IMG/VR virus record: IMGVR_UViG_3300046787_000408
Span: 124,001-188,000 of that record
Length of the DNA: 64,000 nucleotides
Reading direction: 5' to 3' (one strand)
DNA from: a virus
Below, piece after piece: positions 16,841 to 31,764 of this stretch; the stretch's first letter is position 1, and the number at the start of each line of letters is the position of its first letter. The translations under genes and the position numbers were made by a program. Below the pieces are notes generated by a model, which ran no database searches, was not told the DNA's origin, and saw nothing but the letters and a program-made list of their open reading frames with translations.

Positions 16841-16843
16841 TGG

Positions 16844-16872: not shown

Positions 16873-16878
16873 TAGGGT

Positions 16879-17079: not shown

Positions 17080-17084
17080 AACGG

Positions 17085-17113: not shown

Positions 17114-17145
17114 ATACACATAGCAAAGCAAAACAGGAGTTGATG

Positions 17146-17433
17146 ATGAGCAAAGCAGATCACACAGTTTACATCTACAAAACAGATCGTCGCACCAAGT
17201 CAGGCGAACGTCTGGTCAGCACTAGTGTTTGGCGCAACCGTGATGCTGCCGAAATGAAGCGCGAAGTCCGGGAACTGCAATACGAACTGTGGCCAGTGAG
17301 CAAGGGGTTCCGTATTGAGTTTCACCCCACAATGAAGACTGTGAAGAACTTGATGACTGGTGCAGACGTACAAATTGATCGCGACACACCCTGGTGTTGC
17401 AACCCAGCATCAGAATCTTACTGGAGCATGTAA
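17146..17433 (+). CDS. Small hypothetical protein
   Basis: 95 residues, basic in the middle, with a C-terminal TPWCCNPASESYWSM. Two adjacent ATGs exist (17143, 17146); the second has the same six-base spacing to AGGAG seen in other cassette copies and is preferred. Function unknown. Confidence 0.72.
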   Translation: MSKADHTVYIYKTDRRTKSGERLVSTSVWRNRDAAEMKREVRELQYELWPVSKGFRIEFHPTMKTVKNLMTGADVQIDRDTPWCCNPASESYWSM

Positions 17434-17434
17434 A

Positions 17435-17581
17435 ATGATGGACCATTTTGTTGTGCGTTATATTCCCGGGGGCATGAGCTTGTATCACAGTGGATACTGG
17501 TTGTGCCGACTGTGGGACTTGAGCAATGGCACAGTTCACGAAGCTCCTATTAAAATGTTGCAAAAGGCAGACTACAAATGA
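17435..17581 (+). CDS. Very small hypothetical protein
   Basis: 48 residues starting MMDHFVVRYIPGG, one base after the previous stop, with GGAG eight bases upstream. No family recognised. Ends overlapping the next gene (ATGA). Confidence 0.62.
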   Translation: MMDHFVVRYIPGGMSLYHSGYWLCRLWDLSNGTVHEAPIKMLQKADYK

Positions 17582-17727
17582 ATGAGAAGCAAATTGAAGC
17601 CTTGTTTGAATGGTTAGATCATCAAACATACAGTGGAGAACCCGGCACTGATGGTGAATACATTCGCATGGAAGAAATGCGTCAGTACCTACCCGAAGCA
17701 ATTAAGAAAATTATGGAGCAGGAATGA
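17578..17727 (+). CDS. Very small acidic protein
   Basis: 49 residues, MNEKQIEALFEWLDHQ to AIKKIMEQE, acidic and helical. It overlaps both neighbours by four bases (ATGA at each end), which supports it as a real gene in a coupled operon. Function unknown. Confidence 0.65.
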   Translation: MNEKQIEALFEWLDHQTYSGEPGTDGEYIRMEEMRQYLPEAIKKIMEQE

Positions 17728-17957
17728 ACGAACGAATTCGAGAACTTCGCCGACAGGCTACTTTAGTAGAAACATATACCTCTAACGACGGTTCAATTCA
17801 CGAAGGCAAGAGCGTGGATCTTGAAAAGTTCGCCGAGTTGATTGTGAAAGAATGTTTAACTTTTGTTGAGCCTATGCCAGGGTCAGGCGACATTGACGAT
17901 TTGGCATTGGAAGCGGCCCGTGAAGGTATTAAAGAACATTTCGGAGTTGAAGAATGA
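17724..17957 (+). CDS. Small phage protein, MNERI-EKFAELI family, copy 1
   Basis: 77 residues. It shares MN-x-RI-x-EL-x2-QA at the N-terminus and EKFAELI-x2-ECL in the middle with the protein at 18241-18423, a short family seen repeatedly in phages of proteobacteria. The extra C-terminal segment GSGDIDDLALEAAREGIKE is acidic. Function unknown. Confidence 0.72.
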   Translation: MNERIRELRRQATLVETYTSNDGSIHEGKSVDLEKFAELIVKECLTFVEPMPGSGDIDDLALEAAREGIKEHFGVEE

Positions 17958-18082
17958 TTTCACTATTTTTATATTGTGCTCTAGGTGCTGCCCTGGCCGC
18001 TAGCGGTGTCAGCGTGATTGACAAGCCTTGGCAATTCTTGCTAATCCTGGCCATTGTGCTTGGCATTGACCACGCTCGTTGA
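17954..18082 (+). CDS. Very small membrane protein
   Basis: 42 residues, predicted to have two short hydrophobic stretches (residues 2-19 and 26-38) around SVIDKPWQ. ATGA overlap with the previous gene. Probably inner membrane; role unknown. Confidence 0.6.
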   Translation: MISLFLYCALGAALAASGVSVIDKPWQFLLILAIVLGIDHAR

Positions 18083-18091
18083 AGGATTAGA

Positions 18092-18241
18092 ATGAACTTG
18101 TGGACCATTATTGATGCTATCATCACAGCACCTGCTTGGATCGTGGGGCATATTGTACAATCGTATGTCAATGCCTACAAGCACGGTGGTGAATGCTATG
18201 TCAAAAACGTGCGAAAATATTGGATGGGCGGTGTCAAATGA
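18092..18241 (+). CDS. Very small hypothetical protein
   Basis: 49 residues, MNLWTIIDAIITAPAW then a basic Tyr-rich tail KNVRKYWMGGVK. The N-terminal half is amphipathic or membrane-associated. GAAGGA lies seven to twelve bases upstream of the ATG. Overlaps the next start region. Confidence 0.6.
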   Translation: MNLWTIIDAIITAPAWIVGHIVQSYVNAYKHGGECYVKNVRKYWMGGVK

Positions 18242-18423
18242 TGAACCAACGAATTCAAGAACTCATGACTCAAGCTGGCACAGACACCAGCGGCAAGTGG
18301 ATGAGCGTGGACAATGCTGAAAAATTTGCTGAACTGATCTTGCAAGAATGCTTGACCGTTGCACTTTACGGGGACGAACATGCTCAAGCGCGAATCAACA
18401 TAAAAACCCTGTTTCAAAAGTAG
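18241..18423 (+). CDS. Small phage protein, MNERI-EKFAELI family, copy 2
   Basis: 60 residues, paralogue of 17724-17957 by MNQRIQEL-x2-QA and EKFAELILQECL. The adjacent ATG at 18238 is an alternative start. The last bases form the left arm of the hairpin at 18420. Confidence 0.7.
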   Translation: MNQRIQELMTQAGTDTSGKWMSVDNAEKFAELILQECLTVALYGDEHAQARINIKTLFQK

Positions 18424-18437
18424 TACTTGAGTACTAC
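18420..18437 (+). terminator. Terminator-like hairpin without strong T-run
   Basis: GTAGTACTTGAGTACTAC is the same hairpin as at 16813 but is followed by AAAATTTC rather than a T-run, so it may only attenuate or protect the message end. Confidence 0.5.
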
Positions 18438-18448
18438 AAAATTTCTGG

Positions 18449-18477
18449 TTGACCAAAATTGCCCAATTTGTTATAAT
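18449..18477 (+). promoter_or_regulatory. Sigma70-like promoter, cassette copy 3
   Basis: TTGACC, 17 bases, TATAAT, with the full shared leader ATACACATAGCAAAGC then AAAACAGGAGTTGAA before the ATG. Confidence 0.9.
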
Positions 18478-18508
18478 ATACACATAGCAAAGCAAAACAG
18501 GAGTTGAA

Positions 18509-18865
18509 ATGACAGCCAAAGCACTCAAGAAGTTCACTGCAATCGCAGAGCAAGCCCAAGTACAAATCAACAAGTTCAAGGTGGAACTGGACAAGGATCC
18601 TGCTCATGCGCTGAGCTGGGGCAACGGTGTCTTCCAAAGTGCTGCCCGTCTCAAGGTAGCAGGCATGCTGGTGTATGCATTTACCGAACGTGAAGGCGAA
18701 GTTGTGTGTTCTGTAGAAGCTGCTCGTGAAACACTCCTGGATCGTGTGATGAACAAGGCACGCTACCCTGCCCAAAGCACCAGCCCTACCAGCAACCTGA
18801 TGGAACAGTACGAAGCTGCCGCTTATGCAGAAGCTCTGGACGAACTGCGATACTTCACTGAATAA
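18509..18865 (+). CDS. Small hypothetical protein
   Basis: 118 residues, mostly helical, with Ala- and Glu-rich segments (MEQYEAAAYAEALDELRYF at the end). Strong AGGAG five bases upstream. Not recognised. Confidence 0.75.
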   Translation: MTAKALKKFTAIAEQAQVQINKFKVELDKDPAHALSWGNGVFQSAARLKVAGMLVYAFTEREGEVVCSVEAARETLLDRVMNKARYPAQSTSPTSNLMEQYEAAAYAEALDELRYFTE

Positions 18866-18874
18866 GGAGTTGAA

Positions 18875-19150
18875 ATGACTAGCATCAAAGACGTTAATTC
18901 TGCAATCATGTTTGGTAACTTTACCAATACTGAACTCACCAGCATCATCGACGCTGTGAAATATGCTCGTGCTCAACTCACGCAGAAAACCAAACGCAGT
19001 CTCATGCTAGGTGACACTGTGAAGTTTACTAGCAACCGAAACGGTGTGACTTATCGTGGCACCGTTCGCAAAATTGCCATCAAGTTTGTGACAGTTGACA
19101 CTGGTCAAATGTTGTTCAAGGTTCCTGCTAACATGCTGGAGGCAGTGTAA
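18875..19150 (+). CDS. Small protein with SH3/KOW-like barrel
   Basis: 91 residues. The C-terminal half LGDTVKFTSN, YRGTVRKI, KFVTVDTG has the turn pattern of a KOW or SH3-like barrel, often nucleic-acid binding. AGGAG lies six bases upstream. Function inferred only from pattern. Confidence 0.72.
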   Translation: MTSIKDVNSAIMFGNFTNTELTSIIDAVKYARAQLTQKTKRSLMLGDTVKFTSNRNGVTYRGTVRKIAIKFVTVDTGQMLFKVPANMLEAV

Positions 19151-19563
19151 TGGGACTGGATATGTACGCCTACGTGGCAAGCAAAGCAAAACAGCATGAT
19201 GAGTTTTACGAAAGTGCTGTGTTTGACAAAGAGTCTAACGAAATGGTGAATACTAACGTATCCAAGCCACGTGAAATTGCTTACTGGCGTAAGCATCCTA
19301 ATCTGCATGGTTGGATGGAAAAACTTGCCCAGGACAAGGGACTAAGTTACGATTCATTCAACGGTGTTGAGATGGAACTTACCTACCAAGACCTTGACGA
19401 ACTTGAACGTGCAGTAACACACAAACAACTGCCGGCAACTGATGGTTTCTTCTTTGGTAACCCTTCAGACGAATACTACTACGAAAGTGACCTGGAGTTT
19501 ATCAAGAATGCTCGTGCTGAGTTGTTCTTGGGGCTGAAAGTGTTTTATAATAGTTCATGGTAA
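19150..19563 (+). CDS. Phage protein of the MGLDMY family
   Basis: 137 residues starting MGLDMYAYV, a small family common in phages, with YWRKHPNLHGWMEKL and a C-terminal YYYESDLEFI. Function unknown. The ATG shares a base with the previous TAA. Confidence 0.75.
   Translation: MGLDMYAYVASKAKQHDEFYESAVFDKESNEMVNTNVSKPREIAYWRKHPNLHGWMEKLAQDKGLSYDSFNGVEMELTYQDLDELERAVTHKQLPATDGFFFGNPSDEYYYESDLEFIKNARAELFLGLKVFYNSSW
19522..19551 (+). promoter_or_regulatory. Weak sigma70-like promoter
   Basis: TTGTTC, 18-base spacer, TATAAT inside the end of the previous gene, 34 bases before the radical SAM start. The -35 is poor. Confidence 0.4.
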
Positions 19564-19571
19564 TACCGGTC

Positions 19572-19579
19572 CATAAATA
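19572..19579 (+). promoter_or_regulatory. T4-late-like box CATAAATA
   Basis: One mismatch from the T4 late -10 element TATAAATA; it ends six bases before the ATG at 19586, which has no Shine-Dalgarno. If used, the transcript starts at the start codon. Confidence 0.4.
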
Positions 19580-19585
19580 TTGGCT

Positions 19586-21100
19586 ATGAATTCTGTTGAT
19601 GTAATATTCTGTTCTCTTCCTGCACTTTTTGTTGATAGGCTCCCTGCCGCACCAGCACTACTAAAGGCAACAGCTGAGGACGCTGGATATTCTGCATCCT
19701 CAGTTGATTTAAATCTTGAGTTTTTTATTAACCAAGCAAATCAAAATACGGACAATTACAATCAATTGTCTTTGATCTTTACACCTAACAGTGCAGCCAC
19801 CAAAGAGTCAAGTGAAGCAATGACCCAATGGGTCCAAGATAGTGTACAATACATTAAAAAAGTCAATCCTAAGATTATTGGGTTAAGTGTGTTCACGGTG
19901 TTTCAACACCGTGCCGCTGTGGCATTATCTATTGCTCTACGCGGCGCAATGCCTGAATCAAAAATTATAATGGGCGGGTATGGGCTGAATGTAAACAGTA
20001 ACGGGTTACAAACTAGTTCACTGATAAAGAAATTTGATTTACTAAAACCGTTTTGGCAACTGGCCAAAGAAAAAAATTTAGCTGATGAAGTATTTCTTGG
20101 CACTGCTCTAGAAGATCTAGTCAATTACTTGCAACGTACACTGGGCGGATCCAACAACTTCCGTGAAAAATATCAAAAGGAAAAACCGGTACTGTTTAAC
20201 ACTCCGGTGCCCAATTACGACGATTATAAATTAGACAAATATGTTTGGAATGATGGTCCAGCATTGCCTATAACCGGTAGCCGCGGGTGTGTTCGTGATT
20301 GCACATTTTGCGATGTTGGGGGGCAATTTGGAAAGTTTACATTTAGAACCGGCAAAGATATTGCCAATGAGATAATTGAATTATCTCAAAGATATAACGT
20401 TAATACATTTGACTTTACTGACAGTTTGGTCAACGGTAGTTTAAAATCGTTCCAAGAATGGTTGAGACCAATTGCAGGATATAATGATTCTGTAGAAACA
20501 TATAAAAAAATAAAATGGTACGGGCAGTACATTTGCCGCCCGCAGACTGAAGTATCAAACACCATTTATGATTTGATTGTTAGATCCGGTTGTGTAAATC
20601 TTACCATTGGTGTTGAAAGTGGTAGCAATGAAGTACTCAAGGCCATGAACAAAAACATGACCACCGAAGATGTACTGGCAGAGCTAGAGCAATTTAAAAT
20701 ACATGGAATACAAGGACAGTTACTGATGCTGTCAGGCTTTTATAACGAAACACCAGAGAGATATAACGAAACATTAAAATTCATTGTTAAGTTACAACAT
20801 TACATAGCCTCTGGTGCAGTTTCGGCTATTAGCATGGGCCCACCGCTGTATATAAATGAGCTGATGCCATTGCATCACTTGGCAGAGGAAGTAGGAGTCA
20901 TATTAGATCCAACTGATACCAAGAATTGGTCTATTGAAGGTGACCCATCTAACACACTGGTTGAACGGTATTATCGCCGTCTTGTTGCGCAACTTGTGCT
21001 GGACAAGCTTGGAGTGCCAATGAACGGAAATTCAATACTTAATATGTTTCAATCAAAATTGAGCCTAGAAAAAATGAAAAATCAAATAATCAATGTATAA
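19586..21100 (+). CDS. B12-binding-type radical SAM protein
   Basis: 504 residues. The N-terminal part resembles a cobalamin-binding domain (IIGLSVFTVFQHRAAVALS, then IIMGGYGLNV), although the DxHxxG motif is not evident. The radical SAM cluster motif is GCVRDCTFC (C-x3-C-x2-C), followed by GVESGSNEVLKAMNK, typical of the class that includes methyltransferases and glycan or lipid-modifying enzymes. The TTG at 19580 is a less likely start than the ATG at 19586. Its partner gene 21093 overlaps by eight bases. It is a distant paralogue of 59645-61615 (shared FTDSLVNG/FIDSLVNG and GVESGS). Confidence 0.83.
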   Translation: MNSVDVIFCSLPALFVDRLPAAPALLKATAEDAGYSASSVDLNLEFFINQANQNTDNYNQLSLIFTPNSAATKESSEAMTQWVQDSVQYIKKVNPKIIGLSVFTVFQHRAAVALSIALRGAMPESKIIMGGYGLNVNSNGLQTSSLIKKFDLLKPFWQLAKEKNLADEVFLGTALEDLVNYLQRTLGGSNNFREKYQKEKPVLFNTPVPNYDDYKLDKYVWNDGPALPITGSRGCVRDCTFCDVGGQFGKFTFRTGKDIANEIIELSQRYNVNTFDFTDSLVNGSLKSFQEWLRPIAGYNDSVETYKKIKWYGQYICRPQTEVSNTIYDLIVRSGCVNLTIGVESGSNEVLKAMNKNMTTEDVLAELEQFKIHGIQGQLLMLSGFYNETPERYNETLKFIVKLQHYIASGAVSAISMGPPLYINELMPLHHLAEEVGVILDPTDTKNWSIEGDPSNTLVERYYRRLVAQLVLDKLGVPMNGNSILNMFQSKLSLEKMKNQIINV

Positions 21101-21704
21101 TTTAGATCATCTGATTCCGTTAGACATACTTGAGATGATGCAACTAGATAGGTTTGATTTTGTATTAACCTTGACATCAGAACCATGTAATAGTCGATGG
21201 CCCAACGCCAAAGTATCTGTAAACAATGAAGTTGTATTCGATGGGATAATAAAAGAATATCAACAAATCAACTATAATGCCAAATTTGATAATATCAATG
21301 AGGTATATGTAGATATAGAATATTACAATAAACAAGATAATGATACAACAGTTGATGCAAATGGTAGTATTATTGAAAACAAATCAATAACAATATCCGA
21401 GCTAACAGTAAATGATATCAACTTGGTCAAGACCAGGACTATCTATAATTTGGGATTTTTCCACCAGAATTTATCTCCAGAAAAACAACAGTATTTTATT
21501 GACCACGGAATCAACTTTGGTCCTAGTCACACCCTGCACCTGGCAGAAAATGGTGTTTGGAAATTGAAATTCCAAATGCCAGTAATGCAAGAGTTTGTTA
21601 GACACAAAGCATCCCAGGCACCAAGCGAGAGATGGCCAAATCCCAAGCTTTTGTCGGAAATTTATGCCTTGATTGAAGACATACGCCGGTTGACCAAAAA
21701 GTAA
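21093..21704 (+). CDS. Beta-rich partner of radical SAM protein
   Basis: 203 residues, strongly beta-prone and Asn/Asp-rich. The pattern AKVSVNNEVVFDG, then SITISELTVNDINL, then LAENGVWKLKFQMP parallels the smaller protein at 44794-45141, which also follows a radical SAM gene, and the C-terminal domain of the radical SAM protein at 59645. A carbohydrate-binding-like beta-sandwich is the best guess; function unknown. Base composition is more AT-rich than neighbours. Confidence 0.72.
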   Translation: MYNLDHLIPLDILEMMQLDRFDFVLTLTSEPCNSRWPNAKVSVNNEVVFDGIIKEYQQINYNAKFDNINEVYVDIEYYNKQDNDTTVDANGSIIENKSITISELTVNDINLVKTRTIYNLGFFHQNLSPEKQQYFIDHGINFGPSHTLHLAENGVWKLKFQMPVMQEFVRHKASQAPSERWPNPKLLSEIYALIEDIRRLTKK

Positions 21705-21718
21705 AAAAATGCTACAAT
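21690..21718 (+). promoter_or_regulatory. Sigma70-like promoter for DNA ligase
   Basis: TTGACC, 17 bases, TACAAT, then 33 bases to the ligase ATG with AAGGGG about nine bases upstream of it. Confidence 0.75.
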
Positions 21719-21751
21719 ACTAGTCAAGTAACAAGAACCAAGGGGTTAAAT

Positions 21752-23119
21752 ATGATTGATTATGCAGACGAAAGGTTTAACGGCGTCATGAGTTCCAGCT
21801 GGATTCGTGATCTGGAGAGTAGTGACAGCCGGATCCATAAAGAAAAAGTCATCGAAAAAGCCCTGATGGCCGCAAAGTTGGGCAGTGCTGATGCACAAAT
21901 TTTCTTGTTCAATTGTTATCAAGCCTACAATCCTTTCTACACATTCAACATAAAACAAGTACCAGAGACCAAAGGCTTGACCAACCAGCTTAATCCGTGG
22001 CCAGTGTTTTGGGCCTTGCTGGAAAATCTGCGTACCCGTAGCATCACTGGTGGCGCGGCCCGTGCTAGAATTCAAGAAGTTTCTGAGCAATTTGACAGCG
22101 AAGAATGGAACTTGGTGTGCCGTCCTGTGATCATCAAAGATCTACGTTGCGGTATTTCTGAAAAGACCATCAACAAAGTTGTGGGCAAAACAGAGTGGAA
22201 AATCCCTGTGTTTGGTGTTCAGCTGGCACAAGACAGTACTGATCAGCCCAAGAAAATGAAAGGCATCAAGCGTCTCGAAGTCAAGCTGGACGGCGTGCGT
22301 GTGATTGCTGTGGTAACTGGTGCCACTTGCACACTGTACAGTCGCAACGGCAAAACTTTTGAAAACTTTCCGCAGATTGCTGAAGCAGTCGAAGACGCTC
22401 GCAAGGCGTTTCAATACGGTCGCGGTACTGGCGGTAACTTTGTGCTGGACGGTGAGATTGTGGGCGAGAGCTTTCAAAAGCTCATGAAGCAAGCACACCG
22501 CAAGAGTGATGCCCAAACTGATGGTATGGTGTATCACATCTTTGACATTATTCCTTTGGATGCACTCAAAGAAGGCCACTGGAACGTAAAACAACAAGCT
22601 CGCTTGGAATGGTTAGATGCAGCTCGCGACGCTTTGGAACAGACCACTTGTTTGCGAATCATGCCTGGCATGAATGTGGATCTAGACACCGCAGAAGGGC
22701 ATGACGTCATGCGCCGTTTTGCTGAAGCAAGTGTTGAGCAAGGCTACGAAGGCATCATGATCAAGAATCTAGATGCTCCTTATATTTGCAAACGTAGTGA
22801 TTCATGGATGAAATGGAAACCCACAATCACAGTGGACTTGACCATTGTGGGTTTTGAAGAAGGAACTGGTCGCAATGAGGGCCGGTTGGGTGCTATAATT
22901 TACGAAGGAGTTGACAATGAACGAAACATTCGGGTTAATGTTGGTACTGGCTATAGTGATAGCGATCGTGATGAGTTTTGGGCCGCACGGGATCGGTTAC
23001 TTGGTGTCATCGGTGAAGTTGAAGCTGATGCAGTTACGCAAAACCAAGACGGAACATACTCACTGAGATTCCCCCGTCACAAACGATTCCGTGGTTTTGA
23101 AGCAGGAGAAAAACTGTGA
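21752..23119 (+). CDS. ATP-dependent DNA ligase
   Basis: 455 residues, similar in size and order to T4 gp30 (487). The adenylated lysine is K178 in LEVKLDGVR (K-x-D-G motif). Other nucleotidyltransferase motifs follow: YSRNGKTF, FVLDGEIVG, YEGIMIKN and SWMKWKP, then an OB-fold domain with RNEGRLGAI. It seals nicks in phage replication and repair. Confidence 0.95.
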   Translation: MIDYADERFNGVMSSSWIRDLESSDSRIHKEKVIEKALMAAKLGSADAQIFLFNCYQAYNPFYTFNIKQVPETKGLTNQLNPWPVFWALLENLRTRSITGGAARARIQEVSEQFDSEEWNLVCRPVIIKDLRCGISEKTINKVVGKTEWKIPVFGVQLAQDSTDQPKKMKGIKRLEVKLDGVRVIAVVTGATCTLYSRNGKTFENFPQIAEAVEDARKAFQYGRGTGGNFVLDGEIVGESFQKLMKQAHRKSDAQTDGMVYHIFDIIPLDALKEGHWNVKQQARLEWLDAARDALEQTTCLRIMPGMNVDLDTAEGHDVMRRFAEASVEQGYEGIMIKNLDAPYICKRSDSWMKWKPTITVDLTIVGFEEGTGRNEGRLGAIIYEGVDNERNIRVNVGTGYSDSDRDEFWAARDRLLGVIGEVEADAVTQNQDGTYSLRFPRHKRFRGFEAGEKL

Positions 23120-23232
23120 AGACTTTTTTTGCAGTTACTGGATTTTTGTTTTGGGGTATGTTTGCGTTGGGATCAATCAATGCAATTGACTTCCATGTGT
23201 GTGCCAAGGCACCAGGACAGTGTACAAAATGA
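23116..23232 (+). CDS. Very small secreted peptide, GTG start
   Basis: 38 residues. The GTG overlaps the ligase stop (GTGA) and is preceded by AGGAGA. Residues 1-23 form a signal-peptide-like segment ending in GSINA, leaving a short mature peptide of about 15 residues with two cysteines (HVCAKAPGQC). Stop overlaps the next ATG. A periplasmic peptide or a small membrane anchor; function unknown. Confidence 0.6.
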   Translation: MKTFFAVTGFLFWGMFALGSINAIDFHVCAKAPGQCTK

Positions 23233-23423
23233 GCAAAAAAATTGAAATTGACTCTGACACCGCAGATCGCATTACTTTGATCGCGCTGAAAGAACAGCGC
23301 AAGTATCTCAAAAAAGAGCTAGCACAGTTCAACAAAGGCGAGTACTTGCATCCTGAAGATGTTGTATACAATACTCGCCTGGTGCAGTCTCTGGATCTTG
23401 TTATCAAACATTATGGTGGTTAA
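23229..23423 (+). CDS. Small helical protein
   Basis: 64 residues, MSKKIEIDSDTADRITLIALKEQ, charged and helical, of a type common in phage genomes (DNA-metabolism regions). Coupled to its neighbours by ATGA overlap upstream and zero spacing downstream. Confidence 0.68.
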   Translation: MSKKIEIDSDTADRITLIALKEQRKYLKKELAQFNKGEYLHPEDVVYNTRLVQSLDLVIKHYGG

Positions 23424-23822
23424 ATGAAAGTTGGTCTTAGCCTTAGTCGTTGCATTCGCGACATTGTAGAAAAACGTGTTAATATCAAAGATGTGCTGAT
23501 ACTGATTACTCGCACAGACTTTGATCCCACGGTAAAAGAACAGTGGGGAAGCATTTGGGAAGGCTACAACACAATCAATCCTGAATGGTATGGTCTGGAT
23601 CACGACGTGGTGTTTGATGTAGTCATGACTTTGTGGAGTACTGGTCGTATTCACCAGCCACGCAAGTTTGATGCATACCCGCAACGTCGACGAGAGTTTT
23701 GGCTGGAAACTGTGTTGCCTGACTCAGAACTAGAATCTCGCCCGGCTGTGAAAGAAGCATGGGATCAGTTCCAACTGTTGGCCGGGCTTACTAGCACCAA
23801 AATAGACAAGAGTTACCAATGA
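23424..23822 (+). CDS. Hypothetical phage protein with REAxxQFQL-type tail
   Basis: 132 residues. The C-terminus VKEAWDQFQLLAGLT matches VREAYEQFQLVCELT in the next gene, so the two share a short helical tail motif, probably an interaction element. Function unknown. Confidence 0.72.
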   Translation: MKVGLSLSRCIRDIVEKRVNIKDVLILITRTDFDPTVKEQWGSIWEGYNTINPEWYGLDHDVVFDVVMTLWSTGRIHQPRKFDAYPQRRREFWLETVLPDSELESRPAVKEAWDQFQLLAGLTSTKIDKSYQ

Positions 23823-24289
23823 AGAAGATCTACTATGTCAAAGAAGGTCGCAGGTACAAACCTGTGGCCGAGTACGACAACGATCTCATGGATAGTTTTC
23901 ACAAGGGCAATCATCTTGTGATGTGCTATCCAGGTGGTACTAGTCGCAGGTTCGATATTGATCCAGACCTGGCACCCATGATTGCGGCAGGGCGAGTGGC
24001 TGAAGATGCTATGTGCAAGGCCATGATGGATGCTAGTGAATTAAGACCACAGCGAACTCCTCTTACAGAAGGACAACGCAAGGCCTGGAAGAAATTGGCC
24101 AAAGAGTTTGGCGATGAGCTCTGCACCTTGCAAGGATCTAGCACACGTGATATTGTGGAAGCTGGAGTAAAGGCCATGCAGGAAGAAGCACTCAAACTAA
24201 TGCAACACCAAGCAGTTCGTGAGGCCTACGAACAGTTTCAGCTAGTATGTGAATTGACCAAAAATACCAAAACAGTTGACACCCGCTGA
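23819..24289 (+). CDS. Hypothetical phage protein sharing the QFQL tail
   Basis: 156 residues; N-terminal strand-rich YYVKEGRRYKPVAEYD, central helices and the tail VREAYEQFQLVCELT also present in the preceding protein. Overlaps that gene by four bases. Its last codons contain the -35 of the promoter at 24276. Confidence 0.72.
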   Translation: MKKIYYVKEGRRYKPVAEYDNDLMDSFHKGNHLVMCYPGGTSRRFDIDPDLAPMIAAGRVAEDAMCKAMMDASELRPQRTPLTEGQRKAWKKLAKEFGDELCTLQGSSTRDIVEAGVKAMQEEALKLMQHQAVREAYEQFQLVCELTKNTKTVDTR

Positions 24290-24304
24290 TTGTTTGAGTA
24301 TAAT
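24276..24304 (+). promoter_or_regulatory. Sigma70-like promoter of the structured RNA region
   Basis: TTGACA (perfect), 17 bases, TATAAT (perfect). Transcription would begin near 24311, at the 5' arm of the long helix described at 24309-24541. Confidence 0.85.
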
Positions 24305-24308
24305 TACT

Positions 24309-24541
24309 GTGCATGCTGGAAGTATATCGTGGTTGCGGGGGGTTTAAAAACCCGTGGCTGTCCGCGTAATGGCCACAAGATGTGACACTGACCTCGACGA
24401 AAGTCAAAACCGGCTGGTACCCGGGAGTAAGCCAAGGGGATAAAAACAGTGATAAGTGTCTTGTACATGTTAACATTTTGATCTCTAAATATTATGTCAA
24501 ATTCCCTAAACTCACTTAAAGAAACGGCTTCCAGCATGCAC
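24309..24541 (+). ncRNA. Candidate structured RNA closed by a 14-bp helix
   Basis: The longest non-coding stretch in the window (24290-24493). The 5' arm GTGCATGCTGGAAG (24309-24322) is perfectly complementary to CTTCCAGCATGCAC (24528-24541). Inside are GTGG/CCAC (24329-24332 with 24373-24376) enclosing GCGG/CCGC (24335-24338 with 24362-24365) and a GGGTTT/AAACCC hairpin; GACACT/AGTGTC (24384-24389 with 24455-24460) encloses a GNRA hairpin GACGAAAGTC (24396-24405) and GGCT/AGCC (24412-24415 with 24430-24433). A perfect promoter starts transcription at its 5' end. The 3' arm contains an ATG (24536) and overlaps the start region of the next gene, so it could be a cis-regulatory leader or an independent RNA. 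No known RNA family recognised. Confidence 0.55.
24486..24491 (+). promoter_or_regulatory. TAAATA box next to start codon
   Basis: TAAATA two bases before the ATG at 24494, inside the structured RNA region. Same motif-to-ATG arrangement as at 19572 and 59635; may be chance here. Confidence 0.25.
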
Positions 24542-24781
24542 CCTCATCGTGTGCTGTTTGAACTGGTTACAGTACAAGACTGGTACAAGGTTATTCACGA
24601 AGCCAATGCCTTGTACGGTTCTCACAACTGGAAAGGTCAGCCGCGAGTCAAGCGCAAACTAGAGCAAAATCACTGGCTGAAAAAGACAGTCCCAGTATGG
24701 TTTGATGTACCTGATCCTGCGTTTGCAACCTGGGTGTCTGTTAAGCACAGCTTGATCGCCAAGAACGTGGTCACTAAATAA
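24494..24781 (+). CDS. Small hypothetical protein
   Basis: 95 residues from ATG 24494, or 81 from the internal ATG at 24536; neither has a clear Shine-Dalgarno. The core LFELVTVQDWYKVIHEANALYG, SHNWKG, then VPVWFDVPDPAFATW loosely follows the strand-helix-strand pattern of the L-R/K-W small proteins found elsewhere in this window. The 3' arm of the 14-bp helix covers codons 12-16. Function unknown. Confidence 0.65.
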   Translation: MSNSLNSLKETASSMHPHRVLFELVTVQDWYKVIHEANALYGSHNWKGQPRVKRKLEQNHWLKKTVPVWFDVPDPAFATWVSVKHSLIAKNVVTK

Positions 24782-24784
24782 TCA

Positions 24785-26377
24785 ATGTTTCTTAGTTATA
24801 TCACTTTGGCTGTAGCACTGAGCCTGTCAGTTATTGCTGCCTACTACTCAATTGCAGGCCTGGCTGCTATTTTTGCTGCGGCCGTGATTCCCATTGTTGT
24901 AATGGGATCAATCCTAGAACTAGGCAAAGTTGTGGTCACACTGTGGCTGCATGAGTATTGGCGGCAGTGCCGTTTTCTCATGAAAATGTACTTGGTGCCT
25001 GCTGTGGCAGTGCTAATGCTAGTGACCAGCATGGGCATCTTTGGTTTCTTGAGCAAAGCACACTCAGACCAAAGCCTAGTGTCAGGCGATGTACAAAGCA
25101 AAATTGCAGTCTACGACGAAAAGATCAAGGTATCACAGGACAATATAGATGTTAATCGCAAAGCACTTAAACAACTCGATGAGGCGGTGGACCAAGTCAT
25201 GGGCCGCTCGAGTTCAGAAACGGGTGCAGACAAAGCCGTTGCTATACGCAAATCCCAAGCGAAAGAAAGAACTAGACTACTGGCTGAAATTGCAGCCGAG
25301 CAGAAAACAATTAGTGATCTCAGACAAGAACGAGCTCCCATTGCGGCTGAAGTACGCAAGGTTGAAGCTGAAGTAGGTCCTATCAAGTACATTGCTACAC
25401 TGATCTACGGTGACAACCCAGATGCCAACTTGCTGGAAAAAGCAGTGACATGGGTTATTATGTTGTTGGTTATAGTGTTTGATCCTTTGGCCATCATGAT
25501 GCTGTTGGCTGCAACAGAAAGTCTAAAGTGGGAAAAGCAAAGACTGTTTGACTTGCTCAAGATGCCTGTGCCGGAGCCAGAACCTGATCTTAAAGTGGTC
25601 AATCAAATGCTGGCCGCCGCGGCAACGATTCCTGAACCACAGGAGCCGGTTGTAGAGCCAAAGTCTGGGCCCATGAAGTTTTTTGATCCAGGCGAGCATC
25701 CCAAAGACTACGACGAGACTGAGGTGCCGGTGCCAGAACCTGTACCAGAGAAAACCCTACTAGAACAGCATCCGTATCTTGGACTAGGATTTTCAAACTT
25801 TAAAGATCTCAAGCCAATGCCGTATATACCCGAAAGAAAACTAGAAGTATATTCGGGCAACCCTGATGATTTCAAAGAGCCATGGAGTGAAGAAGACCGG
25901 CTACGTTTGGCCGCAGTTATGGAAACATTCCTTGACAAGAATCAAGATGAAGATCCTGAACTAAGCGATGACCATCCCAGTGTCAAAGCAGCCATGGTCA
26001 AATGGAAATTGGCCAACCCAGGTGCCACTCTCAAAGAACAACGTGCAATGTTTGCTCGTGGCGAGATTGCTGAATTACCTTGGCTAGCTCTAATTGATAA
26101 CAATGCTAGTGAATCAGGTTTTGGGTTGACATTGCCAGCTACTGCTCACAAAGGCGATACCTGGGTATTAACTAGTACATTGCCTAATCGGGTATATAAG
26201 TTTAATGGTAACAAGTGGATTTCAGTTGACAAAACTCAAACAGATAACTATACTTACAACGAAGCATACCTGGACCACCTAATAGCCAAGCTAGAATCTG
26301 GTGAATACGATATAGAATTGCTCAGCAGTAATGAGCAAGAACAGATTACTCAACGTCTACAAAAGAAAACAATATGA
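24785..26377 (+). CDS. Membrane protein with coiled coil (DUF4407-like topology)
   Basis: 530 residues. Hydrophobic segments near residues 3-25, 26-45, 68-90 and 222-246 with a charged coiled coil between the third and fourth ([18 protein letters not shown] to [17 protein letters not shown]), the layout seen in DUF4407 proteins. The cytoplasmic C-terminal half is Pro/Glu-rich ([15 protein letters not shown]) and ends with a small beta domain containing [16 protein letters not shown]. Function unknown; similar proteins occur in large myophages. TAAATA lies four bases before the ATG, overlapping the previous stop. Confidence 0.75.
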
Positions 26378-27564
26378 AATCAAACGACTCTATCTACAAT
26401 TGCAGTTTCTGTGGCAAACACAAAGATGTTGTGACCAAACTAATCGTGGGCGTAAATGTCGCCATCTGTAACGAATGTGTGGACCTGTGCCAAAACTTAC
26501 TGGTAGACACCCCGGTAGAAATCACAGCCCCCAGCACACCCAGCCTGGATCCGCGCAAGATTCGTGAGCATCTAGACCAGTATGTGATTGGACAGGATCA
26601 AGCCAAGATCCTGTTGAGTGTGGCTATTGCCAATCACTACAAGCGCATTGCCAATCAAGATCCCGAACACGAAATTGAAAAAGCCAACATTCTCATGCTT
26701 GGCCCCACAGGCTCGGGCAAAACACTTTTGGCACGTACCGTGGCTCGGTATCTTGACGTGCCGTTTGTGATTGCAGATGCCACCAGCTTGACCGAAGCTG
26801 GATACGTAGGCGACGATGTGGAAAGCTTGATCTCAAGATTGTTTGCTGCATCAGGCGGTGACATTGAAAAGACACAACGTGGTATTGTGTTTGTGGATGA
26901 GATTGACAAGATCAGTCGCAAAAGCGAAGGCACTAGTATCACTCGTGATGTGTCCGGAGAAGGTGTGCAACAAGCCTTGTTAAAATTGGTAGAAGGTACC
27001 AAGTGCAGAGTCATGCCCACAGGCGGACGCAAACATCCTTCGGGGGAAACAGTAGAAATTGATACTACCAATATCTTGTTTATTGCAGGCGGCGCATTTG
27101 TAGGCATGGAAAATATTGTCAAGAGCCGTGTGAAAGGCACCAGTATTGGTTTCAGTGCTGATGTACGTACAGATGAAAAAGCTCAGCTGAGCCAGACCAC
27201 TCCTGATGACTTGGTACGCTTTGGCTTGATCCCTGAATTTGTGGGACGTTTTCCAGCTTGGGTTGCACTGCAAGAACTGGACAAAACAGATCTTGTGCGT
27301 ATTCTTAAAGAAGTCAAACACAACTATGTGAGTCAGTATCAGTGGTTGTTCAAGCAAGATGAAGTTGAGCTGGAGTTCTCAAAAGACAGCTTGGACTTGA
27401 TCGCTGAGCGCACTATCAAGAACAAAACAGGCGCACGTGGCCTGCACAGTGAACTAGAGCGTGTGTTGTTACCGCACATGTACAATCTAGCTCGCTATCG
27501 CTCAGATGGTATCAAGCATGTGGATATTGATCAAGCTCTGGTAAATAGTCCCAAGGAACTCTAA
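26374..27564 (+). CDS. clpX: ClpX, AAA+ unfoldase of the ClpXP protease
   Basis: 396 residues. An N-terminal C4 zinc finger (C10, C13, C32, C35) selects substrates and adaptors; Walker A is GPTGSGKT (110-117), Walker B FVDEID (173-178), the substrate-gripping pore loop GYVG (143-146) and, importantly, the IGF tripeptide (258-260) that docks on ClpP. All key elements are present, so it should be an active unfoldase able to pair with host or phage ClpP. Two ClpP-type genes lie at 39814 and 42935 and clpS at 29310. ATGA overlap with the membrane protein gene. Confidence 0.96.
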
Positions 27565-27570
27565 AGGATT

Positions 27571-27795
27571 ATGGAAAAATTACACGGTAGATCAGTATTG
27601 GTACAGGATGGCAACGTAGATCGTGCCTTGCGCAAGTTCAAGAAAAAGATAGCTGCTTCGGGGCTGTTGAATGACCTGCGTGATCGAGAGCACTATGTTA
27701 AGCCTACCACGGCTCGCAAACTCAAAGCAAGTGCTGCCAAGAGCCGCTGGCGCAAGAAAATGCGTGAACAAGAACTGCCCAAAAAACAGTTTTAA
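27571..27795 (+). CDS. rpsU: Ribosomal protein bS21 homologue
   Basis: 74 residues, very basic. ALRKFKKKIAASGLLNDLR and REHYVKPTTARKLKASAAK align with E. coli bS21 (ALRRFKRSCEKAGVL and EFYEKPTTERKRAKAS). bS21 sits by the 3' end of 16S rRNA near the anti-Shine-Dalgarno and is needed for initiation on many mRNAs. Phage copies are known and are thought to replace the host protein. It lies just downstream of clpX with AAAGGATT upstream and ends TAATG with the next gene. Confidence 0.93.
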   Translation: MEKLHGRSVLVQDGNVDRALRKFKKKIAASGLLNDLRDREHYVKPTTARKLKASAAKSRWRKKMREQELPKKQF

Positions 27796-28031
27796 TGTAT
27801 ATTGAGTTTAGGTACAAACCTTCAAATATTCTCACAGCCGCAATCAACCATGAAATGCATGCATGGTCAGATCGCTACAGTATTCCTTACTTTACCAAAA
27901 CAGTCAAGTATGGCAAAAGATTCACGTTTGATGATGATGCACACTACAGTTTCTTTGCCATGACTTGGAATCCCACAATGTCTTTGCCCGAATACCACTT
28001 GATTGAACCAATGAAAATTGACAGAAAATGA
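27795..28031 (+). CDS. Small protein, divergent L-R/K-W family member
   Basis: 78 residues. RFTFDDDAHYSFFAMTWNP matches the C-terminal pattern F-x-F-x-(D/E)-x-D-A-x2-F-x-L-(R/K)-W of the small proteins at 46475-48943, but with 17 residues beyond the W. Translationally coupled to rpsU. Function unknown. Confidence 0.68.
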   Translation: MYIEFRYKPSNILTAAINHEMHAWSDRYSIPYFTKTVKYGKRFTFDDDAHYSFFAMTWNPTMSLPEYHLIEPMKIDRK

Positions 28032-28040
28032 GATTTCCTG

Positions 28041-28048
28041 TATAAATA
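28041..28048 (+). promoter_or_regulatory. T4-late-like promoter box TATAAATA
   Basis: Exact match to the T4 late -10 element, 64 bases before the Hsp20 ATG and just after the previous gene. T4 late promoters need only this box plus the phage sigma and clamp. Confidence 0.6.
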
Positions 28049-28112
28049 CATTTGTAGTGCCGATGGTCGGGCTACATTTCAAAACGTCATACTTGCTTAA
28101 TAGGAGAAAAAC

Positions 28113-28568
28113 ATGACAAAAACTCTAACCCTTCGTTCTTTCGACATTCCTGCAATTCACAAATTTGGTATCGGTTTCGATAACATGTTTGATGAACTCA
28201 TGCGTGTAAGTGCCCAACAAGGCAATACCAACTACCCACCTTATAACATTGTGCAAGTCAATGAAGACGAGTACATGATCAGTGTGGCTGTAGCAGGCTT
28301 TAGTCTTGACAACCTAAGCGTGACCAAGGACAAAAAAGTCTTGATCATTGAAGGCAAGCAAACTACAGGCGATGTTGCTGATGAAGAAGTAGTCAACTAC
28401 TTGCACAAAGGCATCAGCGAGCGCAGTTTCCGCAGAGAATTTCAATTGGCAGATCATGTGGAAATTACCAATGCACACCTTGAACTTGGTATCTTGAACG
28501 TGCGTTTAAAGCGTGAAGTCCCAGAAGAAGCCAAGCCAAAGAGCATTGCGATCACTTATACTTCTTGA
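28113..28568 (+). CDS. Small heat-shock protein Hsp20 (IbpA-type)
   Basis: 151-residue holdase chaperone. The alpha-crystallin domain spans about residues 42-140 (YNIVQVNEDEYMISVAVAG, FSLDNLSVTKDKKVLIIEG, then NAHLELGILNVRLKRE), with the C-terminal anchoring motif region KSIAITY. T4-like cyanophages often carry an Hsp20. TAGGAG lies nine bases upstream of the ATG. It follows a TATAAATA box, so late expression is likely. Confidence 0.93.
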   Translation: MTKTLTLRSFDIPAIHKFGIGFDNMFDELMRVSAQQGNTNYPPYNIVQVNEDEYMISVAVAGFSLDNLSVTKDKKVLIIEGKQTTGDVADEEVVNYLHKGISERSFRREFQLADHVEITNAHLELGILNVRLKREVPEEAKPKSIAITYTS

Positions 28569-28574
28569 TCACAA

Positions 28575-28582
28575 CGTAAATA
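28575..28582 (+). promoter_or_regulatory. Late-like box CGTAAATA
   Basis: Two changes from TATAAATA, 36 bases before the ATG at 28619 and immediately before the hairpin at 28583. Confidence 0.3.
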
Positions 28583-28610
28583 CAGTGGCAAGGCAACTTG
28601 CCACTGTTTA
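28583..28610 (+). terminator. Strong hairpin after hsp20
   Basis: Perfect 10-bp stem CAGTGGCAAG/CTTGCCACTG with GCAA tetraloop, followed by TTTA. Weak T-run, so it may terminate partially or stabilise the hsp20 message. Confidence 0.5.
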
Positions 28611-28618
28611 GGAACACC

Positions 28619-29323
28619 ATGGCTAGAATAGAACACAATCTTATCTCTGCTGAAGAGATCAAGTTATTCAAACAATATTACAACACATTTTCTGCAGACA
28701 AATATGTAAATGCCACCACAAACGGTGAGGTCGCAGACGGTTGTGCCATGAATGATCAAGAACCTATAATTGATCATAGGCTGTTGATCGAACCTTCAAA
28801 AAGTCAGCAATGTTGGGATATTGTACAAAGAGTCACCCATCACTTTTTGCCCGGATGCGAAAATATATGGGCCAACTATCAGCGCCAAAGTTTGCCTCAC
28901 AGAACACATGTGGACGATTACTGCAAACATTTTGATGTCCCTACATATACTATTATTATTGCACTGGATACACATCCTGAATTCAATGTAATACTATGCA
29001 AAGAAGAAGCAGATAGTAACGCCCATCTAAGTCAGATGTTAAAGGATTGGGCTACACCTGCACCTGATCCAGCAACCAAGATCTGCAACATCAGTGAAAC
29101 AGAAGATCTTGAACATTCAATTGACCCAGTTCATCAGCAATACTTTCTAGACTGGTTGACACCCGATGGTGTTTTCCGTTATACTGCTGGTAGTGGTGTA
29201 TTCTTCTTGGCATCACAGATACATTGCTCAGGAAACTGGCACAAGTACAACAAGTTTATCAACAAAGACCTCGTGCAAATTCATGCACACTACAACAAAG
29301 GAACAAGCAATGTCTCAATCTGA
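28619..29323 (+). CDS. Putative 2OG-Fe(II) oxygenase-like protein
   Basis: 234 residues from ATG 28619 (a TTG at 28598 lies within the hairpin and is unlikely). THVDDY gives a candidate H-x-D iron pair (H97, D99) and the C-terminal QIHCSGNWHKYN offers the distal histidine. Two other proteins here (33011, 48960) have the same H-x-D...H layout. Substrate unknown. Overlaps clpS by 14 bases. Confidence 0.6.
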   Translation: MARIEHNLISAEEIKLFKQYYNTFSADKYVNATTNGEVADGCAMNDQEPIIDHRLLIEPSKSQQCWDIVQRVTHHFLPGCENIWANYQRQSLPHRTHVDDYCKHFDVPTYTIIIALDTHPEFNVILCKEEADSNAHLSQMLKDWATPAPDPATKICNISETEDLEHSIDPVHQQYFLDWLTPDGVFRYTAGSGVFFLASQIHCSGNWHKYNKFINKDLVQIHAHYNKGTSNVSI

Positions 29324-29621
29324 AACAAAAACACGTATCAAACCTTCTGAGGCAGTGAAAGAACCGCCAATGTACAAGGTGATTTATCTCAATGACAACC
29401 AAACTACCATGGAGTTTGTTGTAGAAAGTTTGATGGAGTTTTTTGACTACAACGAAGAAACTGCGTTTACTATTACCACAGATATTCACGAAGAAGGTTC
29501 AGCAGTGGTAGCAGTGCTACCATTTGAAATTGCTGAACAAAAAGGAATTGAAGTCACAGTGAGCGCTCGAGCTCTAAGTTTCCCGTTGCAGATCAAACTT
29601 GAGCCAGATACTGTTCAATAA
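29310..29621 (+). CDS. clpS: ClpS-like N-degron adaptor
   Basis: 103 residues. The ClpS core begins at about residue 18: MYKVIYLNDNQTTMEFVVES matches the family signature (Y-x-V-x-x-x-N-D-D-x-T-T-x-E-F-V), with the downstream helix and IAEQKGIEVT. ClpS normally delivers N-end-rule substrates to ClpAP. No ClpA is seen here, so it may redirect host ClpA. The N-terminal extension that engages ClpA is present but short. The start ATG overlaps the previous gene and AAAGGA is upstream. Confidence 0.9.
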   Translation: MSQSETKTRIKPSEAVKEPPMYKVIYLNDNQTTMEFVVESLMEFFDYNEETAFTITTDIHEEGSAVVAVLPFEIAEQKGIEVTVSARALSFPLQIKLEPDTVQ

Positions 29622-30406
29622 TCCACAGTGATTCGCAAGGGGTAGTACACATGCTGACCCCAAGCTGAGTTACATCTGCCTCTACAGTTGTTGACATAGC
29701 GAATCCCTCCTCGAACCTGATCCACTGATCCAGGATAGTGGCCAAAGCACCAAGTGTGTATTTTGTGTTCGCTATCAACAGTCAGTGCCTGTTGCATGAG
29801 CCTGTTGCCCATGGTATTGAATGCGAGTTTACCTTCAAGATTGATATCATGTGCAATCAGCACAGGGTCAGGCACAGTGTGAGTAACCATTACAATTTTC
29901 TTGACATCTGGATGAGTTTGTAGTCGCTTGACTGAATTTACCATGTACATGGCATCTGTGTTGGACATTCTACTAATGGATTTGATTGCTTCGTTACTGA
30001 GGTTGCGCTGCTCTTGAAATTGCTGTGCGCTGCCAGTGGGGTCAATCCCAAGATCAAAATCAAACCCCCACCAGCCGCTGGTGCCCAAGATTGCCACACC
30101 GTCTACCACAACCACATTGTCTTGAAGATATACCACATTGGGTATTCGATTGATTTTGTGGGCTAGATCTGCATAGCTGTAGCTCAGGTTCTCTAGATGT
30201 TGTTCATGTTCGTCATTGCCGTCAATATAAAACACGGCTTGATAGCTACGGCCCAGTTCTCGCAAGGTTTCAACAGTGTGCCTGCGATCACGACTGATGT
30301 TTCCAGCTACTATACAGATTGGACTGGTAGGCATTACTTTCCAGTCAACTGCGGGCCACGTTTCCACGTGCAAATCAGAAATTAAGTCAAATGTAAAAGT
30401 CATCAT
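29615..30406 (-). CDS. Degenerate calcineurin-like metallophosphoesterase
   Basis: 263 residues with the outline of a metallophosphoesterase but altered motifs: ISDLHVE (D-x-H kept), GNIS instead of GD, GNDEH instead of GNHE, THT kept in TVPD, and GHYPG instead of GHTH. Several metal ligands are therefore changed and activity may be lost or altered. A second, fully canonical paralogue is at 51157-51969. Only minus-strand gene in this area; its end overlaps clpS by seven bases (convergent). Confidence 0.72.
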   Translation of the reverse strand: MMTFTFDLISDLHVETWPAVDWKVMPTSPICIVAGNISRDRRHTVETLRELGRSYQAVFYIDGNDEHEQHLENLSYSYADLAHKINRIPNVVYLQDNVVVVDGVAILGTSGWWGFDFDLGIDPTGSAQQFQEQRNLSNEAIKSISRMSNTDAMYMVNSVKRLQTHPDVKKIVMVTHTVPDPVLIAHDINLEGKLAFNTMGNRLMQQALTVDSEHKIHTWCFGHYPGSVDQVRGGIRYVNNCRGRCNSAWGQHVYYPLRITVDY

Positions 30407-30427
30407 ACATATTTAAAAGGAAAATAC

Positions 30428-30790
30428 ATGTACATTATTTTTGGAGACACCGCTACTCAAATTCCCGACGGTCATACTGTGTTAGAGTTGGATACTGTTC
30501 GCCGACCACCGGACAACATCCCTGTGACTGCATACTGTGTGATTGATAAAATTCCCTTGCAGGAATTTCCTATTGCTGAAGCCAACAAAAAACTACATGG
30601 CGAGTTGTTACAGCATTATCGAGCTCAGGAATGGGACCAATGCGGACAAGCTATTCAAACCTTGTTGGGCAAATGGAACTGTGAGCTAGACAGCTTTTAT
30701 GTGAACCTTGGTCAGCGTGTGGAACATTACCGCAGCAATCCTCCGCCAGCAGACTGGGACGGAACCTATACCAAAGCTGCCGGTAAATAA
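30428..30790 (+). CDS. Hypothetical phage protein
   Basis: 120 residues, MYIIFGDTATQIPDGHTVLELDT with the C-terminal NPPPADWDGTYTKA. AAAGGAAA upstream of the ATG. Not recognised; position before the glycosyltransferase-like gene may be incidental. Confidence 0.7.
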   Translation: MYIIFGDTATQIPDGHTVLELDTVRRPPDNIPVTAYCVIDKIPLQEFPIAEANKKLHGELLQHYRAQEWDQCGQAIQTLLGKWNCELDSFYVNLGQRVEHYRSNPPPADWDGTYTKAAGK

Positions 30791-30811
30791 TAAACTATAT
30801 CAGGAGTTGAT

Positions 30812-31660
30812 TTGAAAACAGCAAGAATCGTGCCGGTAGGCGCACATCGTATTGGTAATGCTTGCCTGTCTTTGCAGTTTGATCTTAACCTTGACCAGTT
30901 TGACAACACTTATATCGTGAGCCCTTTACCGGGTAGCCGATTGCAAAAAGTGTTTGAACACTACAACATCAACACCACAGGGTTTGTGTATCTCACAGAC
31001 CAAGACTTGATCAATTCATACCCGCAAATCAACAACTGGTACCTTACCAATGATTACCGAGGTAGTTGGTTGTTTCAACAAGCGCTGAAATTAGCCAGTA
31101 TAGACTACGTGGATGCAGATCTTGTGTTTGTGCAAGACGCTGATACATTTTGCACCCAGCCCTACTCTTGCCTAGTTGACCAAGAACTAAATCTATTTTA
31201 TCAACCCAACATTAGTCATCACTGGGGATATTATAAAGCTGCTGAGAATCTCACTGGCTTGCCAAGACCCTATCCGCATTCGTTTGTGTGCGACATGATG
31301 CCAGTGCTCAAAAAAGACTGGCTCAGCTTACGGAATCAAATTACCAGCACATTCTCAGGACACTGGTTAGATACAGTTATTGATCAAACCCCTTGGGATT
31401 ACAGTGCTGGAGTCAAGTGGTTTAGCGAATATGAACTGTTGGCCAATTGGTCTGGTTATCAAAATCCCAACATTGTTTTGACTCAGCAACAACGATTTGA
31501 ATTCAAGAATCTTGAAGCACTTACTCATCGAGATTTCCCGCCAGTGTTTAACGTGATCAGTGACAAGAATCCCATGGGACAGATTCTACCATTTGACTAT
31601 GCTACAGACACTGTGTACAATCTTGATGCTGTACTAGATCGTTTGAATCGCAACGCCTGA
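30812..31660 (+). CDS. Glycosyltransferase-like protein (DUF6492 type), TTG start
   Basis: 282 residues. A candidate DxD metal/nucleotide-sugar motif appears in VFVQDADTFC (about D110-D112), with NNWYLTNDYRGSWLFQQALK before it and a C-terminal HRDFPPVFN, as in DUF6492 GT-A-like proteins. The TTG start has CAGGAG five to ten bases upstream and no better start is nearby. It precedes a UDP-sugar dehydrogenase gene, consistent with a glycan-modification module. Confidence 0.7.
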   Translation: MKTARIVPVGAHRIGNACLSLQFDLNLDQFDNTYIVSPLPGSRLQKVFEHYNINTTGFVYLTDQDLINSYPQINNWYLTNDYRGSWLFQQALKLASIDYVDADLVFVQDADTFCTQPYSCLVDQELNLFYQPNISHHWGYYKAAENLTGLPRPYPHSFVCDMMPVLKKDWLSLRNQITSTFSGHWLDTVIDQTPWDYSAGVKWFSEYELLANWSGYQNPNIVLTQQQRFEFKNLEALTHRDFPPVFNVISDKNPMGQILPFDYATDTVYNLDAVLDRLNRNA

Positions 31661-31666
31661 GTGTTT

Positions 31667-31688
31667 ATTTTGCCACCCACGGCAAAAT
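31667..31688. terminator. Intergenic stem-loop
   Basis: ATTTTGCC/GGCAAAAT stem with loop ACCCAC, just after the glycosyltransferase-like gene. No T-run, so termination is uncertain. Confidence 0.35.
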
Positions 31689-31713
31689 CCCATAAATTAA
31701 ATTATCGTAGTGG

Positions 31714-31742
31714 TTGTTCAAACCACCTGTAAGTTGTATAAT
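31714..31742 (+). promoter_or_regulatory. Sigma70-like promoter for the sugar dehydrogenase
   Basis: TTGTTC, 17 bases, TATAAT; the -35 overlaps a small GTGGTT/AACCAC inverted repeat (31710-31725) that could be an operator. Confidence 0.55.
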
Positions 31743-31764
31743 CTATCTAAAGGAACACTCATAC

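Follow-up and report, generated by a model that had tools for sequence, protein, structure and literature searches.

A probable new class of structured mRNA leader that enlists the first codons of a giant-phage gene

The window, as the whole stretch of 64,000 nucleotides analysed here is called, covers bases 124001–188000 of the IMG/VR virus record IMGVR_UViG_3300046787_000408 (299,983 nt). The terminase is ~54% identical to that of PA5oct/Paride-type Pseudomonas jumbo phages, and the first gene of the cluster described below has no match in INPHARED. This gene (24494–24781, plus strand) codes for a basic protein of 95 amino acids and is followed by genes for a DUF4407-like membrane protein (24785–26377), ClpX with a zinc finger (26374–27564), ribosomal protein bS21 (27571–27795, the fourth gene behind the RNA considered here), a 78-aa ORF listed between bS21 and HSP20, HSP20 itself (28113–28568) and ClpS (29310–29621). 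The order small basic protein – DUF4407-like protein – ClpX – S21 – HSP20 is kept in relatives both with and without the RNA. Hsp20 and Clp genes are named as frequent neighbours of phage bS21 genes in parts of a survey of the latter (Chen et al. 2022, PMC9723584), whose passages on upstream regions and promoters mention no RNA leader. Ahead of the cluster lies a promoter of sigma-70 type (24276–24304, plus strand), in which TTGACA (24276–24281) and TATAAT (24299–24304) are separated by 17 nt. It is the sole 12/12 match within 15000–34000 and thus the perfect promoter that the initial annotation had described. Some other signals were registered in passing: TTGACA-17-TATACT (26226–26254, 11/12) inside the DUF4407-like gene, possibly an internal promoter for clpX; at 16811–16872, a strong terminator-like hairpin and, right behind it, TTGACT-17-TATAAT whose −10 box is preceded by TG; and a radical SAM protein at 19580–21100 with a weak match to a B12-binding domain.

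Homologous loci were gathered via relatives of the 95-aa protein (211 in IMG/VR) and of an upstream protein, and the element was located in them by nhmmer. The RNA stands immediately before almost every homologue of the gene, and it accompanies this one gene family only. A covariance model of its part termed arm B (R1), run over whole records, found a single strong copy in each of 15 records out of 16; the remaining record has neither the RNA nor the gene. Neither the element nor the gene was found among cultured phages (INPHARED, DNA and protein searches) or in GTDB species genomes (pattern and protein search). In these comparisons the predicted RNA is conserved in dozens of divergent lineages of uncultivated giant phages. 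A −10 box matching in at least 5 of 6 positions precedes the element in 94% of 52 distinct homologous loci (12% for shuffled sequence) and is placed 5–8 nt ahead of its first helix, a distance near-constant in nearly all of them, which supports the transcript start predicted near 24311.

At or beside this predicted start lies the 5′ strand of the closing helix P1, GTGCATGCTGGAAG (24309–24322, plus strand), exactly complementary over 14 bp, as had been claimed, to its 3′ strand CTTCCAGCATGCAC (24528–24541, plus strand), which occupies codons 12–16 of the gene. By a hand estimate about 1e-4 such exact complements are expected in 233 nt, and scrambled 3′ arms equal the observed mean P1 score in 0.08% of trials, so that the initial judgement of an unlikely chance match holds. 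P1 forms with probability 1.00 in the unconstrained fold of the window element. Compared with shuffles, the whole element has a folding z of −2.8 carried by this helix, and the interior alone, without it, has an unremarkable folding energy (z = +0.2). Support for the inner helices is therefore comparative, energy alone not being decisive. Over 62 distinct arm pairs P1 is paired at 90.3% of positions, compared with 68.5% (maximum 72.6%) in 500 permutations of whole arms among sequences; this test and those given below ignore kinship among the sequences, and their figures are strong but are not formal probabilities. Several standard pair types occur at each of P1 positions 5–12. Even the conserved GCAUG core is altered yet paired in GCACGG/CCGUGC (L005), GUAUGG/CCAUAC (L114) and GUAGAG/CUCUAC (L196), and the AUG of the 3′ strand turns into GUG (L005), AUA (L114) or CUG/CUA with a compensatory change that keeps the pairing. 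The initial annotation placed in this strand an ATG together with the start region of the next gene. The ATG is indeed there (24536), but the gene starts at 24494 and this triplet is its in-frame codon 15.

Inside P1 the predicted architecture is a single domain holding arm A and a second domain, which is closed by helix P9; the latter would contain arm B, the ribosome entry region, the start codon and helix P8, with a pseudoknot, PK1, tying the two arms together. All features of both arms lie on the plus strand. In arm A, P4 (GUGG 24329–24332 with CCAC 24373–24376) and P3 (GCGG 24335–24338 with CCGC 24362–24365) make up the two-part helix noticed initially at 24329–24376, and both are conserved with compensatory changes: GUG/CAC, GGG/CCC, GAG/CUC, UGG/CCA, CGG/CCG and AAG/CUU in P4; GUUCA/UGAAC, AUCUA/UAGAU, GCUGA/UCAGC, UGUUU/AAACA, GCCCA/UGGGC and others in P3. 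Their joint score is 7.48 with the own partner and 6.12 (maximum 6.59) after permutation. They surround the hairpin P2 (GGGUU-UAAA-AACCC, 24340–24353), whose length varies among homologues, and a conserved CCGUGGC. The latter belongs to the segment CCGUGGCU (24352–24359), where GGCU (24356–24359) is the 5′ half of PK1; the 3′ half, AGCC (24430–24433), ends the conserved GAGUAAGCC (24425–24433) of arm B. The pseudoknot thus joins CCGUGGCW with GUAWGCC, as GGCU/AGCC in the clade of the window, GGCA/UGCC in the main group and AGCA/UGCU in another group; at 94.6% paired against 87.0% (maximum 92.0%) permuted, this is the weakest of the pairing tests. RNAalifold, applied to the first alignment, misleadingly paired the 5′ strand of P1 with GUAUGCC. 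This solution was rejected because members with GUAAGCC break it, and GUAWGCC covaries with CCGUGGCW instead. Energy also favours a GUGGC/GCCAC hairpin in the window, which on inspection by eye did not look conserved, and no support was obtained for a further helix in which GGAG, located after P1, would pair with coding-region CUCU.

Arm B is built from P5 (CACUG 24386–24390 with CAGUG 24447–24451; 86.2% of cells paired, double changes in 3 of 5 pairs), P5b (CCUC 24392–24395 with GGGG 24436–24439) and two hairpins. P5b shows double changes in all 5 pairs (UCCUU/AAGGA, UCCCU/AGGGA, UCUCA/UGAGA, UCUCU/AGAGA, UCCAA/UUGGA etc.). The GNRA-capped hairpin reported at 24396–24405 is P6 (GAC-GAAA-GUC), a conserved helix with compensated stem changes, whose loops always have four bases (GAAA, GCAA, UUCG or UUAG) on varying stems. 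P7 (CCGG-CUGGUAC-CCGG, 24410–24424) likewise varies in a compensatory manner (ACUCGG/CCGAGU, CACUGG/CCAGUG, CCAACC/GGUUGG etc.) and is paired in 90% of cells. In 69 sequences aligned to the model of arm B 82.3% of cells pair (70.2% shuffled) and double changes affect 15 of 18 pairs, in 140 cells compared with 49 ± 5 after shuffling (0 of 500 shuffles), in an alignment which is fitted to the structure and hence biased towards it, but with which a model-free hand-parsed table agrees. Sliding the partner by one column lowers pairing to 33–54%. A pairing of the Shine-Dalgarno sequence with the 5′ strand of P5b was considered but abandoned, since the changes seen in P5b lead away from such complementarity.

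Two further helices, unseen in the initial annotation, reach into the coding sequence. P9, previously unsuspected, was the top result of a covariation scan across all column pairs: GUGA (24382–24385, plus strand; consensus GNGR) pairs with UCAC (24512–24515, plus strand; consensus YCNC), which comprises a Ser/Pro codon and the next C. Each of the six N/R combinations is seen together with its complementary partner (GCGA/UCGC, GAGA/UCUC, GUGA/UCAC, GUGG/CCAC, GCGG/CCGC, GAGG/CCUC). The helix is paired in 95.6% of cases, compared with 78.9% (maximum 83.9%) on permutation, and among its few misses three look like loci with a register shifted by an extra codon. P8, a hairpin with the stem UUUGA/UCAAA (24477–24501, plus strand) as read from the window alone, holds the start codon (24494–24496) in its loop; in homologues codons 3–4 pair with codons −11/−10 (GUCAA/UUGAC, GUUGA/UCAGC, AUUGA/UCAAU), in 93.5% of cases as compared with 86.8% (maximum 90.5%) after permutation. 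The first codons of the gene thus supply the 3′ strand of each of P8, P9 and P1. Between the last two runs a conserved joining strand, UURRANNAACG (24516–24526, plus strand), also within the coding sequence. In its codon NNA the third base is A in 52 of 52 loci (entropy 0), and the first and second bases vary (1.6 bits each); its codon ACG ends with G in 49 of 52 loci. Across the same 52 loci mean third-position entropy is 0.68 bits in the N-terminal stretch before P1 and 1.79 in the folded protein domain.

These observations bear on the simplest alternative, that promoter and coding sequence are conserved here and no RNA structure functions. The element is partly coding, and relatedness inflates the permutation tests. 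On the other side, in the overlap third positions vary less than first and second ones, which is opposite to coding constraint, most pairing is lost when partners are slid by 1–3 columns, and helices lying far apart change their strand combinations together. In our view the covariation refutes this reading, and we give it next to no credence. Compensatory changes, whose absence from homologues had been named in advance as the outcome that would speak against a structured RNA, are seen in all alignable helices.

Proteins of the first-gene family have 95–105 aa and a mean pI of about 9.6. AlphaFold2 gives pLDDT <50 for nearly all residues 1–14 of the 95-aa protein, and about 90 for most of the remaining ones, which form an alpha/beta fold. 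The N-terminal residues that the RNA overlaps are predicted to be disordered. In the window the first 16 codons of the gene lie within the RNA fold, and the N-terminal extension of the protein seems for the most part to be a by-product of that fold. Foldseek gave no confident structural relative, and the protein could be matched to none of the known RNA-binding families and is no recognisable enzyme or transporter. In most homologues AAAGGA stands straight after the 3′ strand of P5 and is followed by AUG, from which the protein begins with MSVNIE... In the clade of the window this usual Shine-Dalgarno sequence is lost: the AUG at 24467, the start codon position of most homologues, opens a four-codon remnant in frame with 24494 (AUG UUA ACA UUU UGA, 24467–24481, plus strand) that ends at a stop, and the gene begins anew at 24494, within the P8 loop. 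Another, divergent clade (L012, L195, L196, L208–L224), with proteins beginning ...LHRF, has strongly expanded peripheral helices and an internal loop in P1; it scores weakly with R1 (14 bits for L012).

Some relatives of the gene have no RNA (L011, L129, L163/L166, L223 and the group L197–L207). In most of them a −10-like box immediately adjoins the start codon on its 5′ side, so that their mRNAs are probably leaderless, and there is no evident Shine-Dalgarno sequence in L163, L166, L197–L207 and L223. On the protein tree the distribution of the RNA requires at least 4 changes, and likely one more if L129, where nhmmer mis-scored retained codons, is scored correctly; on this short and unrooted tree multiple losses appear likelier than multiple gains. 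In L163 and L166 the gene begins 6–7 nt after the −10 box with AUG CAC, codons of the 3′ strand of P1, and their first codon is equivalent to the ATG at 24536. Such a junction inside P1 is what one would expect of a self-splicing intron or inserted element, the removal of which restores a leaderless gene starting with AUG-CAC. We consider this origin highly improbable: the absent segment does not have the same endpoints in every RNA-less lineage, an AUG is missing from the junction in the LHRF clade, Rfam gave no match to group I or group II introns even at a permissive threshold, in the window there is no adjoining mobility gene, and L129, also without a leader, retains the N-terminal codons, with ACC in place of ACG.

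As to known RNA classes, Rfam 15 gave no matches in the window at the gathering score and only chance hits far below it at E ≤ 10 (SNORD41 and mir-957); nine homologous loci gave none at E ≤ 2. The initial annotation, too, had seen no match to hammerhead, cobalamin or RNase P consensus elements. No description of the RNA was found in the literature. A ROSE-type thermometer, known from HSP20 leaders, was discarded, there being no Rfam match and AAAGGA being unpaired in the comparative structure; a tmRNA or tRNA was likewise discarded, since ARAGORN detects no tRNA-like domain. The initial annotation had left a choice between a riboswitch-like leader and an independent phage RNA. The first fits much better, given the position upstream of a single gene family, the single copy, the promoter and the 3′ strands made of codons. 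An RNA acting in trans, or an RNP scaffold, that is freed from the transcript's 5′ end and overlaps the gene with its 3′ strand by position only, would account for a complete closing helix at the transcript 5′ end behind a strong promoter and for a complexity beyond the usual needs of translational control. It is nevertheless improbable, as the RNA was not found apart from the first gene and three of its helices use codons of the latter, so that intact message and released RNA would compete.

A riboswitch in the strict sense, with the conserved core and pseudoknot as an aptamer for a metabolite or ion and P1/P9 as the expression platform, would agree with the large and highly conserved core, the tertiary pairing, peripheral helices of variable length and conserved joining strands (CCGUGGC, GUAWGCC and UCAAAAC among them). 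Restriction to one gene family in a single copy per phage, a first gene that is no recognisable enzyme or transporter and the lack of a matching class among those described in Rfam 15 make it rather unlikely. We entertain only tentatively the related idea of a new ligand-sensing RNA, riboswitch- or ribozyme-like, whose pseudoknotted core would use the protein's own codons as expression platform and time the bS21/ClpX/ClpS/HSP20 cluster in infection.

Taken as a whole, the segment 24309–24541 is probably a new class of cis-acting structured mRNA leader. Comparison shows its helices, which partly consist of codons, together with a promoter at constant distance, the association with one gene and the single copy; conserved RNA structure in the 5′ leader and initiation region, by which autogenous leaders are recognised, is present. 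Folding of the RNA is probably in competition with translation of the gene: once folded, the leader would hinder ribosomes from entering at the start codon that it encloses, and a translating ribosome would melt P8, P9 and P1. As the start codon is itself unpaired though enclosed by helices, we infer occlusion rather than read it from the fold. A bound factor may shift the balance, thereby setting how strongly the first gene, and perhaps the cluster, is expressed. The leader probably binds a protein encoded in its own operon: a cluster product is the simplest ligand, considering that the RNA keeps strictly to one gene and that the protein encoded there is basic. The small first-gene product is the most likely candidate and the phage bS21 a less likely one; a small molecule would be a less probable ligand. 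In the single-sequence model of the window P3, P4, P5 and P9 have probabilities <0.03, and the preferred interior fold reaches −73.4 kcal/mol versus −51.7 kcal/mol when the listed helices are scored by themselves; the comparative fold, being 22 kcal/mol worse than the optimum, may therefore be stabilised by tertiary contacts or a ligand, or represent one of two states. Since several RNA-less lineages keep the gene, the control should be dispensable.

If so, a large and structurally rich RNA class was previously missing from Rfam, and the locus offers an unusually clear case of the same stretch serving as structured RNA and as code. Since the cluster it heads encodes a phage ribosomal protein together with host-like chaperones and proteases, the RNA provides a testable handle on the takeover of translation and proteostasis by giant phages, and natural relatives with and without it at the same position form a ready comparison. 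Riboswitches resemble it in the conserved core, closing P1, variable peripheral helices, pseudoknot and 5′ leader position, and differ from it by the single gene family, the absence of a metabolic gene and the location of the P1 3′ strand inside an ORF. GOLLD, ROOL and HEARO, the large phage-associated structured RNAs, share with it the size and the occurrence in phage genomes of uncultivated origin, but the new RNA overlaps and leads an mRNA and has no match in Rfam, searched as a whole. Closest in arrangement are autogenous translational operators, such as the leaders of ribosomal proteins S4 and S15 and the operators of phage T4 gp32, RegA and coat proteins. There too structured RNA surrounds or precedes the start codon of the first gene, codons joining the fold in some operators, and the operon encodes a small basic protein; here ribosomal protein bS21 follows further down. 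The new RNA is unlike them in its much larger size (about ten helices and a pseudoknot), unrelated sequence, a regulator that is still a candidate and coding strands reaching some 28 codons in in most homologues. By its bS21 gene with Hsp20 and Clp neighbours the cluster resembles the bS21-encoding phages described in the passages cited above (PMC9723584).
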